The position numbers and the translations under genes are program-made. From an uncultured bacterium (GTDB taxonomy: Bacteria > Cyanobacteriota > Vampirovibrionia > Gastranaerophilales > Gastranaerophilaceae), in assembly GCA_949284715.1 (NCBI GenBank), contig CASDWH010000014.1:1-32065 (forward strand): DNA of 32,065 bases, written 5' to 3'. This document shows positions 23,729 through 31,940 of the stretch, piece by piece; the first letter of the stretch is position 1, and each line of letters opens with the position of its first letter. A model generated the notes under the pieces. That model made no database searches. It saw nothing but the letters and a program-made list of their open reading frames with translations, and was not told the origin of the DNA.

Positions 23729-23760
23729 CTTAAAAACGGGGTAAAATAGAGGGGGTGTAC

Positions 23761-24291
23761 ATGGCAGAAAGTATAATTATTTTTTCGGGAAAACAGTATT
23801 CTGGGAAAGACACTGCCGGAGAGTTTTTTCTGGAAAATCTCGACGGGTATAAACGCTGTGCTATGGGTGATGTTATAAAACAGGAATTTGCGCGTCGGAA
23901 TGGAATTAGTGTTGAAGAGATTGAAAAAAATAAATCAGCGTACCGCCAGGGGCTTATAGATTTGGGAAATTGGGGGCGTAGTCAGTCTGCTGATTACTGG
24001 CTTGAAAAAATTGTTTCGCAGGAGGGGAAAATCATTGTAACAGATGTACGCGTACCGCACGAGTATGAAGTGTTTAAAAAGGCGGGAGCGGTCAGTATAA
24101 GAATAGAGGCTCCACGGGAAGTGAGGGCTGAGCGCGGTACACTTGTCGGCGAGGAAGATATAACAGAAACAGGGCTTGATGATGTCCTTGATTGGGATTA
24201 TATAGTTGAAAATGACTCGGATATAGAAAGTTTTAAGCATAAACTTCTGGATATTATTACCGATTTAAATAAGGAAATTAATATCTTTTGA
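23761..24291 (+). CDS. P-loop nucleotide (dNMP-like) kinase
   Basis: A 176-residue P-loop protein. The Walker A is G10-K-Q-Y-S-G-K16-D-T, and later segments D-V-R-V-P-H-E-Y-E, and R-I-E-A-P-R-E-V-R-A-E-R resemble phage-type deoxynucleoside monophosphate kinases and related adenylate-kinase-like folds; the animal phosphomevalonate kinase group looks similar at the P-loop. I cannot choose the substrate. GAGGGGG precedes the ATG at 23761; an in-frame GTG two codons earlier lies within the ribosome binding site spacing and is rejected. The 3' end overlaps a convergent gene by 14 bp. Confidence 0.7.
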   Translation: MAESIIIFSGKQYSGKDTAGEFFLENLDGYKRCAMGDVIKQEFARRNGISVEEIEKNKSAYRQGLIDLGNWGRSQSADYWLEKIVSQEGKIIVTDVRVPHEYEVFKKAGAVSIRIEAPREVRAERGTLVGEEDITETGLDDVLDWDYIVENDSDIESFKHKLLDIITDLNKEINIF

Positions 24292-25075
24292 AAAATTTAA
24301 TAATGTAATATATCGGGTTATGGATTATAAAGAAAAATTTGTAATATTCCTGTCCTAAAATATGTACCCAGCCGTTAATATCACCGCCTTTAATGGTGTC
24401 TATGTCCTCTGCAAAGTATTTTACCTTTTCACATACAAGCCTGGGACATAACACGCCGCTCTCCCCCACTATAAGGGCTTTTGTTGGGAACTCTTGATAG
24501 TATTCTTGTTCTAGTACACATAATAAGGTAAATTTATTAGATTTGTAGTTTTGCTTTAAGACATTAAATAAATTCTCAATATATTTTTTATCTTCTTCAA
24601 CTGTTGTATTTTTTATTTTTACTACAAATAGTGTTCTTTTGCCGCCTGTTAATAAATTTGATGTTTTTTCTCCAAGATATTTGACTCTTGATTTCAGTTC
24701 TTCAACAGCTTTTTGCAACAAATCATTGTTAATACTTCCGTCACTATTTATTAATGCTTTTTCATTTCTTGGATGAAAAGCTATTTGATATTCATCGGAT
24801 AACAGCATATACCCTTTTAAACTGAAATTGCTGTTATATATATCTGTAAGATTATTTATAGCCTTTAAGAATAATCTTCTATCATGCTCGTATGAATATG
24901 TAAAAATGTAATGGTTACATTCCCTGCATAACAGATTATTTATCCTCATTGACACTTCGCAGTTATAGCCCAGTGAACAAATTTCATCATATTTTTTGCC
25001 TAATTTTACTGTCCAGAGATAAGGATATTTCCCTCGTAATATGTCTATAAATCTTTGTAAAAAATTTAATCTCAT
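24278..25075 (-). CDS. DUF1796-like putative cysteine peptidase
   Basis: A 265-residue protein. The segment S-L-G-Y-N-C39-E-V-S-M-R-I matches the conserved Cys motif of DUF1796, a family predicted to be papain-like; F-H-P-R-N-E and R-T-L-F-V-V-K-I downstream fit the same family, but I could not run a search. The C-terminal stretch is aromatic and basic (F-F-F-I-I-H-N-P-I-Y-Y-I) and could contact membrane. Its ATG directly abuts the obg stop (TAAATG), so it is translated from the obg mRNA. DUF1796 genes are often near surface polysaccharide genes, which is not the case here. Function unknown. Confidence 0.6.
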   Translation of the reverse strand: MRLNFLQRFIDILRGKYPYLWTVKLGKKYDEICSLGYNCEVSMRINNLLCRECNHYIFTYSYEHDRRLFLKAINNLTDIYNSNFSLKGYMLLSDEYQIAFHPRNEKALINSDGSINNDLLQKAVEELKSRVKYLGEKTSNLLTGGKRTLFVVKIKNTTVEEDKKYIENLFNVLKQNYKSNKFTLLCVLEQEYYQEFPTKALIVGESGVLCPRLVCEKVKYFAEDIDTIKGGDINGWVHILGQEYYKFFFIIHNPIYYIIKFFKRY

Positions 25076-27438: not shown

Positions 27439-28008
27439 TTAACCGTTTTCCTTGCTCCACAACATGATTCGTTTTTTATTGTTTATTAATGAGAACCCGT
27501 TTCGTTCATAAAAACTTACAGCACCCGGAGTTGAATTGAGTTTGATTTTGGTATTTGCAGCTTTTAAGCAGTCTAATATTGCACTTCCAAGCCTTTTGAA
27601 TAACGGAGGATCCGGCAACAGATGTATATATTGCGGGTGTACCTGTAAATAATTGATATTAATAGTTTTATCACCTTTAATACTGGTTTCTGCTATACCC
27701 AGTATTTCGTCTGCGTGTAATTTTTCTAAAGAAGCTTTCTGATTTGTCAGTGCAAAGAATTTTGTTAAAGATTCATCAAGCAAAGTTTTTCTGCTTATAT
27801 ATTTTGCATCAAATAAAATCTCGTTAGCATAAGAATTATCGCCAAATTCGACTGCCGTTTTTTCAAGAGTCTTTAAGTCGCCCGTATCAAACGGGTTTAT
27901 CTCCACAAAATTAGCTAGTTTATTTGTGTACTTCTGTGTTTCGTATGAATATTGTTTGATTGGGATTTTTTGTATAAATTTTGCCCCGAAAGAAATATTA
28001 TTGTCCAT
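27439..28008 (-). CDS. GNAT-like acetyltransferase with N-terminal I-S-F-G-A motif
   Basis: A 189-residue protein. The C-terminal half looks like a GNAT domain: Y-L-Q-V-H-P-Q-Y beta strand, L-F-K-R-L-G-S-A-I-L helix and the final S-F-Y-E-R-N-G-F strand-loop typical of the family. The acetyl-CoA loop (usually Q/R-x-x-G-x-G/A) appears as L-F-K-R-L-G-S-A, a weak version. The N terminus M-D-N-N-I-S-F7-G8-A9 fits the F-K-G/A pattern of other unknown genes in the window. It is convergent with tsaD (9 bp gap). Substrate unknown. Confidence 0.65.
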   Translation of the reverse strand: MDNNISFGAKFIQKIPIKQYSYETQKYTNKLANFVEINPFDTGDLKTLEKTAVEFGDNSYANEILFDAKYISRKTLLDESLTKFFALTNQKASLEKLHADEILGIAETSIKGDKTININYLQVHPQYIHLLPDPPLFKRLGSAILDCLKAANTKIKLNSTPGAVSFYERNGFSLINNKKRIMLWSKENG

Positions 28009-28384: not shown

Positions 28385-28420
28385 AAAAAACTTGCAGGGC
28401 GTAATTTTTTATGCAGCCTG
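28385..28420 (-). terminator. Probable terminator of the two membrane protein genes
   Basis: On the minus strand an imperfect hairpin (CAGG at 28420-28417 with CCTG at 28398-28395 and further TAA/TTA pairs inside) is followed after a few bases by six T (28390-28385). The stem overlaps the last codons of the gene at 28409-30016. Confidence 0.45.
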
Positions 28421-30016
28421 ATTTTTTTGAGCCTGTTCTGCCTCAAGTTTTGCTTTACGTCTTGCTTCTGACTTTCTTGTCATATGTATATTAAGAGTTG
28501 GAATACCAAGCCCCAGAGCTGTTCCTGTAAATGCGTATCCTGCAAACTGTGCGATGTTCAGTACTTTTAATTTTTTCTTAGTAGCTGCAAGTATTGGTTT
28601 GGCGGCAGGTGATTTTTCCAGCAATTTAATCATTTCTGTTATATTCATTGCCATTTGTTTACCTGTTTTTATATCTTTTTTAATTGTTGATATACCAACG
28701 CTATGAAGTGCTTCTCTGAGTACTTCGTTTCTTGATTTTAGTGTAGAGCCGGTAATAATATTGCCGTCGTTCTTTTTGTTAAAGTTCAATAACTTTTTCC
28801 CTGTAAAGGCAGCGGCCATACCTCTGTTTACAAAATCACCCAGAACAAGCCAGCTCAGGAATCCAAAACTGTCTTTTACGCTGGATTCTCTTAGCTCATC
28901 TTCGCTTCTTGTAACCAGAACTCTGCTGGTAACTGTTACGCCATAGATTCCTTTTAACTGGTTAATTGTCGGTGCAAGCCCTTGAAAGGCCATTTTATTA
29001 AGGAAATCTTTAGGCTTGCATTTTAGAGATGCTAATACCATTGTCAGCATACCTGCGCCGACTGCGAGTTTTTCGAGTTTGAACTTTGTTGAGCGGTCTT
29101 TTTCATTGCAAGTTCCGCCGACGAATCCTTCTTTCCCTGTACGTTTTTTTGTATACCACATGTTAATCGGTTGTACAGACAATCCTACGCCGGAACCTAT
29201 TAAAAAGCCTAATAAAGCTCTGCCTTTGTTGAATTTAGACATTGCAGACAAAAATTTATTTTTTCCGCCGCTTGCTGCTGCATTATTAAATGCCTCCATT
29301 ACTTTTTGTTCTTTAAACGCTTTTGTCATGCCGACAATGTCGTCGAGTAATGTGTTGAGGTTAGAAGTTCCGCTGTTTTTAAGCTTGAATCTGGTATCCG
29401 CGCCGGTATTTTCAGTGATTATAGCGTTAAGGACACCGCGTTCCGGAGATTTGCTGCGCCAATGTTTTATATTGATATTTTTATCATTTATTACATCATC
29501 AAGGATGTTTACAATTTTTTCTTTGTCACTTTCGTTTGTGAGTTTAATGAAACCTGTATCATTATTTTTTGTTGTATTGTATCCTTCAATTTCGTCGATA
29601 ATTTTTTTCAGGTAATCTTTTTGAGAGGAATTATTTTTCAAATGTTCATTCCAGAATTCAGCGAGAGTATTGACTCTTTCAGGGGAGGTAAAAATTTTGC
29701 TTGCTTTAACATTGTATTTATTAGCAACAACAGTGCCTAAAACAGCTCCGGCGCCCATTCCGTATAATCCGATAGACGCATCATTAATGGTACCCATTGA
29801 TTCCCGGAAACCTGTTTCAACGCCTGCATCTATACCGCGGCAGATACCGTCTTTTGCTGTACGGGGTGCAACCATAAATGCAACATCGGTAAGGTTCGCG
29901 CCTACGCCCAAGTTTGTTGCAAGGTAGTTTAAAACACCGCTTGTTCCTTTGAATGCGGGCTGTTTATTGTTTGTAATGTTGTTAGGGTAATTGTTTTGAT
30001 TTAACTGTACTTTCAT
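28409..30016 (-). CDS. Unknown multi-pass membrane protein, A-F-K-G motif, paralogue A
   Basis: A 535-residue protein of no family I recognise. Polar Asn/Gln-rich start, then P-A-F22-K23-G24. Several hydrophobic, Gly/Ala-rich stretches (for example about 75-95, around 270-285, 320-335 and near 490-505) suggest a multi-pass membrane protein with a large soluble part at about 100-240. It shares with the next gene the V-A-P-R-T motif at 49-53 and a later stretch (R-V-L-V-T-R-S-E-D-E-L-R-E-S compared with R-I-A-A-A-D-D-K-N-E-V-R-E-S, followed by a hydrophobic segment ending G-D-F or G-D-Y), so the two are paralogues. The C-terminal tail is charged and rich in Lys, Glu and Ala. It lies 10 bp after paralogue B. 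Confidence 0.7.
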   Translation of the reverse strand: MKVQLNQNNYPNNITNNKQPAFKGTSGVLNYLATNLGVGANLTDVAFMVAPRTAKDGICRGIDAGVETGFRESMGTINDASIGLYGMGAGAVLGTVVANKYNVKASKIFTSPERVNTLAEFWNEHLKNNSSQKDYLKKIIDEIEGYNTTKNNDTGFIKLTNESDKEKIVNILDDVINDKNINIKHWRSKSPERGVLNAIITENTGADTRFKLKNSGTSNLNTLLDDIVGMTKAFKEQKVMEAFNNAAASGGKNKFLSAMSKFNKGRALLGFLIGSGVGLSVQPINMWYTKKRTGKEGFVGGTCNEKDRSTKFKLEKLAVGAGMLTMVLASLKCKPKDFLNKMAFQGLAPTINQLKGIYGVTVTSRVLVTRSEDELRESSVKDSFGFLSWLVLGDFVNRGMAAAFTGKKLLNFNKKNDGNIITGSTLKSRNEVLREALHSVGISTIKKDIKTGKQMAMNITEMIKLLEKSPAAKPILAATKKKLKVLNIAQFAGYAFTGTALGLGIPTLNIHMTRKSEARRKAKLEAEQAQKNQAA

Positions 30017-30026
30017 AGGGCTGCCT

Positions 30027-31619
30027 TTAGTTTTGTGCGATTTGCGTATTTCGTTTTTCTTGCTGTTCTTTTAACGCTTTTTGTTCCTCTTCAAATTGTT
30101 TTATTATTTGTGCTTTTATTTGTTCATGTTTTTTCTTGGTTTTGCCTCGTTCGTAAATGATTAAACCGAGTATTGCAAAGGAACTTAAAAGATTTACAAG
30201 CTGGCAGATTGAGCGGTATTTTTGAGCTTTACCGGTCAATGCTTTATCTGCAAACATCAGTTCATTAGAGGATTTTATATGAGTATTAAGCACCCAGTTT
30301 TTGAATTTTGTTAAAATATTTGCATCTTTTGGTGAAACAACAGTTCTGTTTAAGAGTTTAACACCTGTGCGAGCTTCTATTGCTGATGCTGCGGCCTTAC
30401 CGCCGTAGTCGCCGAAGAAATATAAACTGCCAAAGGTTAAGAGATCTCTGCCGCGTGATTCCCGTACTTCATTTTTATCGTCGGCGGCGGCGATTCTTGA
30501 AGAGAACGTGATGGCTGAAATTGCTCTTGCCTGATCCATTGTCGGGTATTTCCCTTTGAACTGGAGCATTCTGCCGAGCATTTTAAGGTTTGGCCTTTGG
30601 GTTGCTGTCATCAGGATTGAAGCTGCTGCCATGCCGAGCATTGCACCTATTGAGATTAGTTTTTCCTGTCCAAGCCCTTCTTTTGCTTTTGCTTTAATAC
30701 GGGCGTATAATTCAGGATATTTTTTTGCATCTTCAAAATCTTCATATATCGGAGCGCCTTTGACACCTGACAGTTTGCCTGTCATCCATCTGTTAAAGAA
30801 TTGCATTGAAGCGGCAAGCGGAAGTACAAGAAGCAGAGCTATGGCGCTTTTTCCTTTGACAAGTTTTTCGGCTTTTGCTGCAAATTTTTCTATTCCGGAG
30901 CTTCCTGACGCATTGTATTCGTGAATATATTTTTTAGTATTTTGCAGCAGAGAAGAAACGCTGACATCTTTCAAGTAAGCACCTTTATCACCCAGGCGTA
31001 TACTTTCATTAACATGGGTTCTGGTCATTATTTCATCAATTACTTTATTAAATTCTTTTTCATTTGCTGCATTGGCAAGTCTTGTACCAAAGGTTTCTAA
31101 ATCTGATTTAAGAACATCAGAGTATTTGATAACGTTGTTGCCGTCAATTCCTTGAACTTTTGATAATAATGATTCGTAGACTTTTGGCATATTACCGTTT
31201 TGTTCTTTATAAATCCGGCTGACGGTTCTTATTGTATCGGTGTCTGCAAGGCAGTCTGCCATTTTCCCGCCTGTTTTAATAAAATGTTTATCAAGTATTT
31301 TTCCCGCGCCGATTGCTATAAATCCCGGAATAAGGCAATTGATAATAAGTCCGCCGCCTTCTCTGCATAAGGTTTCAAATCCGGCAAACAGATTTGTAAC
31401 TGAGTCAAATATTGTCCGCGGGGCAATTGCTGTTGTAACATCGAGGGTTGCAACATTCATCATAGGATTGCGTTCAAGATATTGCATTCCTGCAACTGCC
31501 GCACCGGCAACTGCTGCAAGCTTTTTGCCTTTAAAATTTATTGAATTTCCATTTTCCTTATTATTTTCTTTTTGGGGATGGAATTTTGTACTTTCCGATA
31601 TATTAACCTTGTTAATCAT
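30027..31619 (-). CDS. Unknown multi-pass membrane protein, N-F-K-G motif, paralogue B
   Basis: A 530-residue protein, unrecognised. The ATG at 31619 is preferred; a GTG two codons upstream is in frame, and neither has a clear Shine-Dalgarno sequence. After a polar, Lys/Asn/Glu-rich start it has I-N-F29-K30-G31, then an Ala/Gly-rich hydrophobic stretch, A-P-R-T at 66-69, a Gly-rich hydrophobic segment (about 90-110) and further hydrophobic stretches near 265-280, 325-340 and 485-500. The C terminus is a long Lys/Glu/Gln coiled-coil-like tail. The shared motifs with the downstream gene point to a tandem duplication. Topology cannot be settled by eye. Confidence 0.72.
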   Translation of the reverse strand: MINKVNISESTKFHPQKENNKENGNSINFKGKKLAAVAGAAVAGMQYLERNPMMNVATLDVTTAIAPRTIFDSVTNLFAGFETLCREGGGLIINCLIPGFIAIGAGKILDKHFIKTGGKMADCLADTDTIRTVSRIYKEQNGNMPKVYESLLSKVQGIDGNNVIKYSDVLKSDLETFGTRLANAANEKEFNKVIDEIMTRTHVNESIRLGDKGAYLKDVSVSSLLQNTKKYIHEYNASGSSGIEKFAAKAEKLVKGKSAIALLLVLPLAASMQFFNRWMTGKLSGVKGAPIYEDFEDAKKYPELYARIKAKAKEGLGQEKLISIGAMLGMAAASILMTATQRPNLKMLGRMLQFKGKYPTMDQARAISAITFSSRIAAADDKNEVRESRGRDLLTFGSLYFFGDYGGKAAASAIEARTGVKLLNRTVVSPKDANILTKFKNWVLNTHIKSSNELMFADKALTGKAQKYRSICQLVNLLSSFAILGLIIYERGKTKKKHEQIKAQIIKQFEEEQKALKEQQEKRNTQIAQN

Positions 31620-31658
31620 ACACACATATCTAACTACATATTCACGGCTACACTGCTG

Positions 31659-31667
31659 ATTATACCA
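31659..31667 (-). promoter_or_regulatory. Extended -10 promoter of the paralogue B gene
   Basis: On the minus strand TGG-TATAAT is seen (TG at 31667-31666, TATAAT 31664-31659), a full extended -10 element, about 40 bp before the ATG at 31619. No clear -35 box is present, as often with extended -10 promoters. Confidence 0.55.
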
Positions 31668-31940
31668 GCAAGTATATTTATTTAAAAGCAGAGCAAAATA
31701 AAAATTGCTTTTTTTTAGACAATTGTAAAGAGAATGTAAAGAATTAATCTTAAGTGTTTTTATAATCTAATAATAATTGATTTAAAACGCTAAGTGTTCT
31801 CTCAAAAGGCTTTTTGGAGTCCAAAATTTTTATCTCTTTATTCAAAAAAATGATTAATAATTTAATTGTAAATTTTTGTAACGATTTAGGTAAAGAAGAG
31901 GTAAAAGATTAAAGAAAAGGAGATGAAGTGCCGATAAAAG
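31668..31940. other. AT-rich intergenic region between divergent genes
   Basis: No ORF is seen. It holds a TATAAT at 31761-31766 that could serve the plus-strand partial gene, a weak AAAAGCA/TGCTTTT hairpin with a run of eight T near 31709-31716, two TAAGTGTT direct repeats (31751 and 31790 region) and AAGGAG at 31917-31922. The AAGGAG is 18 bp from the ATG at 31941, too far for a normal ribosome binding site. Nothing else convincing. Confidence 0.4.

Follow-up and report, generated by a model that had tools for sequence, protein, structure and literature searches.

What are the two genes that stand side by side at the end of this contig, and do their products work together? The window (the whole stretch of DNA analysed, 32,065 nucleotides) is contig 14 of a 2.0 Mb genome in 42 contigs. 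Near the contig end it carries two genes, here called A and B, both on the minus strand and arranged head-to-tail with a spacing of 10 bp (Table 1). The closest named relatives of A shared 84–85% protein identity with it and came from metagenome-assembled 'Candidatus Gastranaerophilales bacterium' genomes, which places the organism in the order Gastranaerophilales. Members of this order are non-photosynthetic relatives of Cyanobacteria. An initial annotation of the DNA had proposed that A and B are paralogous membrane proteins of an unknown family that could form a lineage-specific complex.

Table 1. Positions of the A/B gene pair, its motifs and other genes in the window
Feature	Position	Strand	Remarks
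Gene A	28409–30016	−	ORF, 535 aa, ATG start; second in the pair
Gene B	30027–31619	−	ORF, 530 aa from ATG; first in the pair; alternative GTG start at 31625 gives 532 aa
N-terminal tail of A, residues 1–24, to F22-K23-G24	29945–30016	−	pLDDT <50
N-terminal tail of B, residues 1–31, to F29-K30-G31	31527–31619	−	pLDDT <50
A-P-R-T of A, residues 50–53	29858–29869	−	P51 and R52 invariant (alignment A4)
A-P-R-T of B, residues 66–69	31413–31424	−	P67 and R68 invariant (alignment A5)
D-E-L-R-E-S of A, residues 373–378	28883–28900	−	E374 and E377 invariant (n = 67)
N-E-V-R-E-S of B, residues 383–388	30456–30473	−	E384 invariant; N383 and E387 at least 90% conserved (n = 62)
Promoter-like site	31659–31686	−	TTTAAA, 16 nt, TATAAT preceded by TG; 10/12 consensus matches; about 40 bp 5' of B
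GNAT-type acetyltransferase	27439–28008	−	Pfam E = 4.5e-4 (below cut-off); N-terminus MDNNISFGAKF
265-aa gene	24278–25075	−	No convincing Pfam match
Kinase	23755–24291	+	Pfam deoxynucleotide monophosphate kinase (1e-14) and phosphomevalonate kinase (5e-11)

Two homologous membrane proteins

The two ORFs are of nearly equal length, and both carry the F-K-G near the N-terminus, the A-P-R-T motif and the charged C-terminal tail that had been described for them. The D-E-L/V-R-E-S motif attributed to both was found as D-E-L-R-E-S in A, whereas B reads N-E-V-R-E-S. The remark that the proteins otherwise differ strongly was overstated. BLASTP aligned A with B at 26% identity over 492 positions (E = 1e-21). 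When the profile of A (67 sequences) was compared with that of B (62 sequences) by hhalign, the probability was 100 and the E value was 6.4e-42 over 462 columns. A and B are genuine full-length homologues, collinear nearly end to end. They are thus diverged paralogues, as proposed, and what they share is significant in profile comparison.

Residues that are invariant or near-invariant in both paralogues were (B numbering) F29, D60, P67, R68, E82, R86, E87, Q273, N276, T280, K320, F354, Q363, R375, E384, E387 and D392. In the A-P-R-T motif, A and B together showed an invariant proline and an arginine kept in at least 90% of sequences. In the tails, F22 of A was conserved in at least 90% of its 67 sequences, with variable residues before it, and F29 was invariant in the 62 sequences of B. 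An internal repeat was also considered. The halves of the proteins share R...E...R-E patterns by eye, and the repeat was rejected after hhalign of the halves gave P values of 0.13 and 0.16.

AlphaFold2 models of both proteins were confident and nearly all helical, with a mean pLDDT of 81.0 and a pTM of 0.77 for A, and 81.8 and 0.78 for B. Each model contained four to five hydrophobic segments and a mixed helix/strand part at about residues 110–250. The disordered N-terminal tails, 24 residues in A and 31 in B, held no stretch resembling a signal peptide. The hydrophobicity of A was modest (peak 1.5), so its membrane topology is uncertain.

Searches of family libraries gave no significant match for either protein. 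The best E values for A and B were 0.074 and 0.1 in Pfam, 0.15 and 0.0074 in NCBIfam (the latter scoring 16.7 bits, where the cut-off is 100), and 0.27 and 0.84 in PHROGs. PADLOC gave no match, and PDB sequence profiles gave chance matches only. Foldseek against the PDB was not significant (best E = 0.11 for A and 0.04 for B), nor was anything significant when B was compared with viral models. The best VIA-align Z scores, 6.1 for A and 5.8 for B, lay within the range that the tool states for chance, and they pointed to folds other than the pyrophosphatase and the glutamate transporter. No solved or curated family can therefore be named for A or B. Neither aligned with a known family, in keeping with the unknown family first suggested, and these results support the view that A and B, as multi-pass membrane proteins, fall outside the families described so far. 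The missing fold match does not prove that their fold is new.

Membrane-integral pyrophosphatases (for example 8b23 and 4av3) recurred among the VIA-align rows, with Z = 5.7, 201 aligned residues and an rmsd of 5.7 for A, and Z = 5.0, 170 residues and an rmsd of 4.8 for B. The likeness is that of a helical membrane protein. Identity was 6–9%, however, Foldseek was not significant, the Z scores were in the chance range, and no Pfam pyrophosphatase match appeared at E values up to 10.

Distribution and age of the pair

The profile of the A/B family was searched against a phylum sample of 291 genomes, 133 from the order Gastranaerophilales and 158 others, five of which were from the same class. 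It matched 132 of the 133 order genomes, 122 at E < 1e-100 and ten weakly, and none of the 158 others. The titles of named matching loci, where they gave a group, read Gastranaerophilales, Melainabacteria or Cyanobacteria; the few exceptions look mislabelled. As far as these genomes were searched, the family appears confined to the order, which bears out the proposed lineage specificity. Being near-universal in a large, mostly uncultured order of gut bacteria, found in none of the relatives searched outside it and falling outside every family in the libraries searched, the pair is a good candidate for group-defining cell biology. As to mobile elements, A had no match in phages and B had none in plasmids.

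For gene order, we used the best 80 of the 233 stretches that matched in a search of genome contigs. B lay directly 5' of A in all 80, of which 75 were complete and five had B cut by the contig end, so the paralogues are kept side by side as had been supposed. Among the 75 complete pairs the gap between B and A had a median of 13 bp and ranged from −4 to 76. Strict pairing is not universal, since two genomes (G009 and G017) contained A with no B in about 1.4 kb upstream. In G029 and G034 the A-like and B-like copies were unlinked, and in G014 B was split over two overlapping frames with no A-type copy. These exceptions, together with the weak matches in ten order genomes, indicate that the pair is open to loss or divergence. 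The split B of G014 (G014:C1:72381-73879, L034) reflects either a shift within the gene or a fault in the assembly.

In a tree obtained by a quick search with SH-aLRT support, in which some order-level sequences were not clearly A or B, the A side and the B side each contained members of families f1 and f6. The duplication thus predates the split of those families. Further paralogues were present in the genome to which the window belongs. A third, unlinked one lies at C1:45833-47332. A fourth, distant one (L090:11937-13727, minus strand, contig C30) matched the family at E = 4e-9. Its N-terminus is a TM1506 domain (DUF1893, PF08973; E = 3.2e-22), which A and B do not have. A and B need not, therefore, pair only with each other.

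The genes that flank the pair varied by clade, and several of the commonest were on the opposite strand. Because the neighbours change between clades, they give no hint of function. A consensus scan found 20 promoter-like sites in the region, compared with 13.2 in its shuffles, so the site upstream of B is weak evidence.

A possible heteromeric complex in the inner membrane

The best explanation of these results, which we hold tentatively and at slightly less than an even chance, is that A and B are a small gene pair, probably an operon, of ancient paralogues apparently confined to the order, whose products would form a heteromeric inner-membrane complex with an order-wide role. The two genes would be co-expressed, B ahead of A, and their products would come together in the inner membrane. 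The simplest roles for such a complex would be those of a channel, a transporter or a scaffold. Its working or packing core may be formed by the clusters of conserved D, R and E residues next to the hydrophobic helices, and the N-terminal tail, predicted to be cytoplasmic, may present the F-x-G for partners to dock on. The pair would stand alone, with no conserved functional neighbours. Conserved adjacency and the shared conserved residues are what suggest a heteromer.

Multi-pass membrane proteins that are paralogues and form heteromeric pairs are a general kind and no single family. A and B resemble them in being two diverged homologous membrane proteins that are encoded by adjacent genes and have long been retained jointly. 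They differ in that no sequence or fold relation to any of them was found, and the complex here is only predicted.

The same data could be read differently. A and B may act apart, as separate homo-oligomers with related but distinct roles, and their adjacency would then be a relic of tandem duplication kept for co-expression. Both copies retain all of the shared polar residues, with no sign that either is a degenerate partner, as this reading would have it. It also agrees with the genomes in which A has no adjacent B, with the unlinked copies in G029 and G034, and with the extra paralogues in the same genome. Against it, the B-A order and the short gaps were found in every one of the best 80 of 233 loci, across deep divergence. 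Keeping the order while the neighbours change goes beyond what one would expect of inertia, and we regard separate action as rather unlikely. The heteromeric pair remains our preferred reading.

The N-terminal tail in other proteins

A position profile was trained on the A/B family only and then used to score the N-termini of other proteins. Each homologous cluster contributed one protein, shuffled versions of the same N-termini gave the expectation, and scores of at least 8 were counted. The own-genome pool covered about 0.74 Mb of the 2.0 Mb and contained 535 unrelated clusters. In it, 17 N-termini reached the score, whereas 4.7 were expected (200 shuffles, maximum 13), giving a P value of about 1e-5, uncorrected for several prior motif definitions. 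The flanks of the best 80 of 233 loci gave 7 compared with 3.1 expected (P = 0.04, likewise uncorrected). There was no excess in G034, which belongs to another family of the order (3 compared with 2.8). The control genomes, one from another order of the class and one from elsewhere in the phylum, gave 1 compared with 1.7 and 0 compared with 1.2, respectively.

The motif was then counted at the same score in the relatives of individual proteins, with the caveat that relatives inside one protein family are not independent. It occurred in 12 of 17 AAA ATPases, which are unrelated to A/B (0.34 in shuffles), in 4 of 8 DHH phosphoesterases (0.24), in 5 of 30 5'-nucleotidases, mostly from the window's own genus (0.75), in 1 of 9 relatives of the GNAT enzyme (0.19), and in 2 of 5 members of the family of a 723-aa orphan (0.09). 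Other members had F-x-A, F-x-S or none. Of seven GNAT homologues whose starts were compared, four began with stretches of the ISFGA, ISFKA or VYFGA-like type and others with ISFEA or ISFLA.

Only two analyses gave a clear result, namely the scoring with the profile and the count among orthologues. Plain counts of the F-x-G tripeptide at unrelated N-termini were not clearly above internal windows, counting by cluster gave a slight excess for F alone, and F-x-G was weakly associated with an N-terminal signature (P = 0.02, 0.38 and 0.05). Some of the pools behind these plain counts and the association may have lacked the window's own genes, which the profile scoring included. Taken together, the support for a shared tail is strong in A/B and the AAA ATPases, moderate for the own genome overall, and weak or absent in the other two pools from the order. 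C-terminal motifs were also tried and rejected; [PK]-I-G-F in the AAA relatives and F-x-x-F in B were not enriched or occurred in only some clades.

The tail may therefore be an order-specific docking or sorting tag, which these counts suggest but do not prove. The tag would perhaps consist of a variable, N/Q/K-rich disordered tail, often starting with M-[K/R/N]-[I/V]-x-x-[I/V] and ending in x-F-x-G, and its carriers would perhaps include the A/B membrane pair, AAA ATPases, DHH and GNAT enzymes and many orphans. In its fullest form, which we consider possible but doubtful, such a tag would be present on about 2% of the proteome, and one shared receptor would dock, sort or export the carriers. 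A and B would then be the most widely retained of the carriers, or else belong to the membrane site that receives them. No such motif was found in the titles and abstracts, partial in coverage, of literature on Melainabacteria and secretion. If the tag is real, it would amount to a lineage-specific targeting or docking code that can be read from sequence, and it would open a way into the functions of many orphan proteins of the order.

The tail could also be explained without any tag. F-x-G would then cap the first helix at the start of the membrane domain, and its recurrence elsewhere would be a coincidence of low-complexity N-termini. In the fourth paralogue, where the TM1506 domain occupies the N-terminus, a similar PSFGNG stands just before the membrane part and not at the N-terminus, as expected of a cap (the alignment there was not significant). 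The plain tripeptide counts, the lack of excess in G034 and the weak signature association point the same way. The excess found by the A/B-trained profile in the 535 own-genome clusters, with none in the two control genomes, argues against coincidence, and so does the frequency of the motif in the AAA ATPases, in which no such membrane domain follows. On balance a helix cap alone seems somewhat unlikely.

It is improbable that A and B are secreted or transferred proteins whose hydrophobic helices insert into another membrane, with the disordered, N/Q/K-rich F-x-G tail as a non-cleaved export signal. The same type of tail on diverse proteins with no obvious signal peptide, among them AAA ATPases, DHH phosphoesterases and some 5'-nucleotidases, would fit a shared export tag, and a flagellar-type export apparatus may be present in the order, since flagellar genes are reported in its members (PMC3787301, PMC5877343). 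Against this, no secretion system was linked to the A/B genes, and a family that almost every genome of the order has is more likely to do housekeeping than to act as an effector. Several tagged proteins resemble cytoplasmic enzymes, and the tail is equally explicable as a docking site.

Several individual carriers were recorded. An AAA ATPase (L089:17499-18953, minus strand, contig C21) has the A/B-like N-terminal tail MKVQPVNINS...KTGFRGL. In its relatives throughout the order the tails are otherwise unalignable but retain F-x-G or a variant of it, and its ATPase part resembles PADLOC IetA. Similar N-terminal tails with no obvious signal peptide were seen in an AAA-M41 protease (L236:764-3919), a DHH phosphoesterase (L240:303-2696) and a 5'-nucleotidase (L276:8583-10124). 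The 723-aa orphan with the tail is encoded at L083:16665-18836 (minus strand, contig C15), and both its relatives and the same genome contain related regions inside very long open frames, the longest of about 2700 codons.
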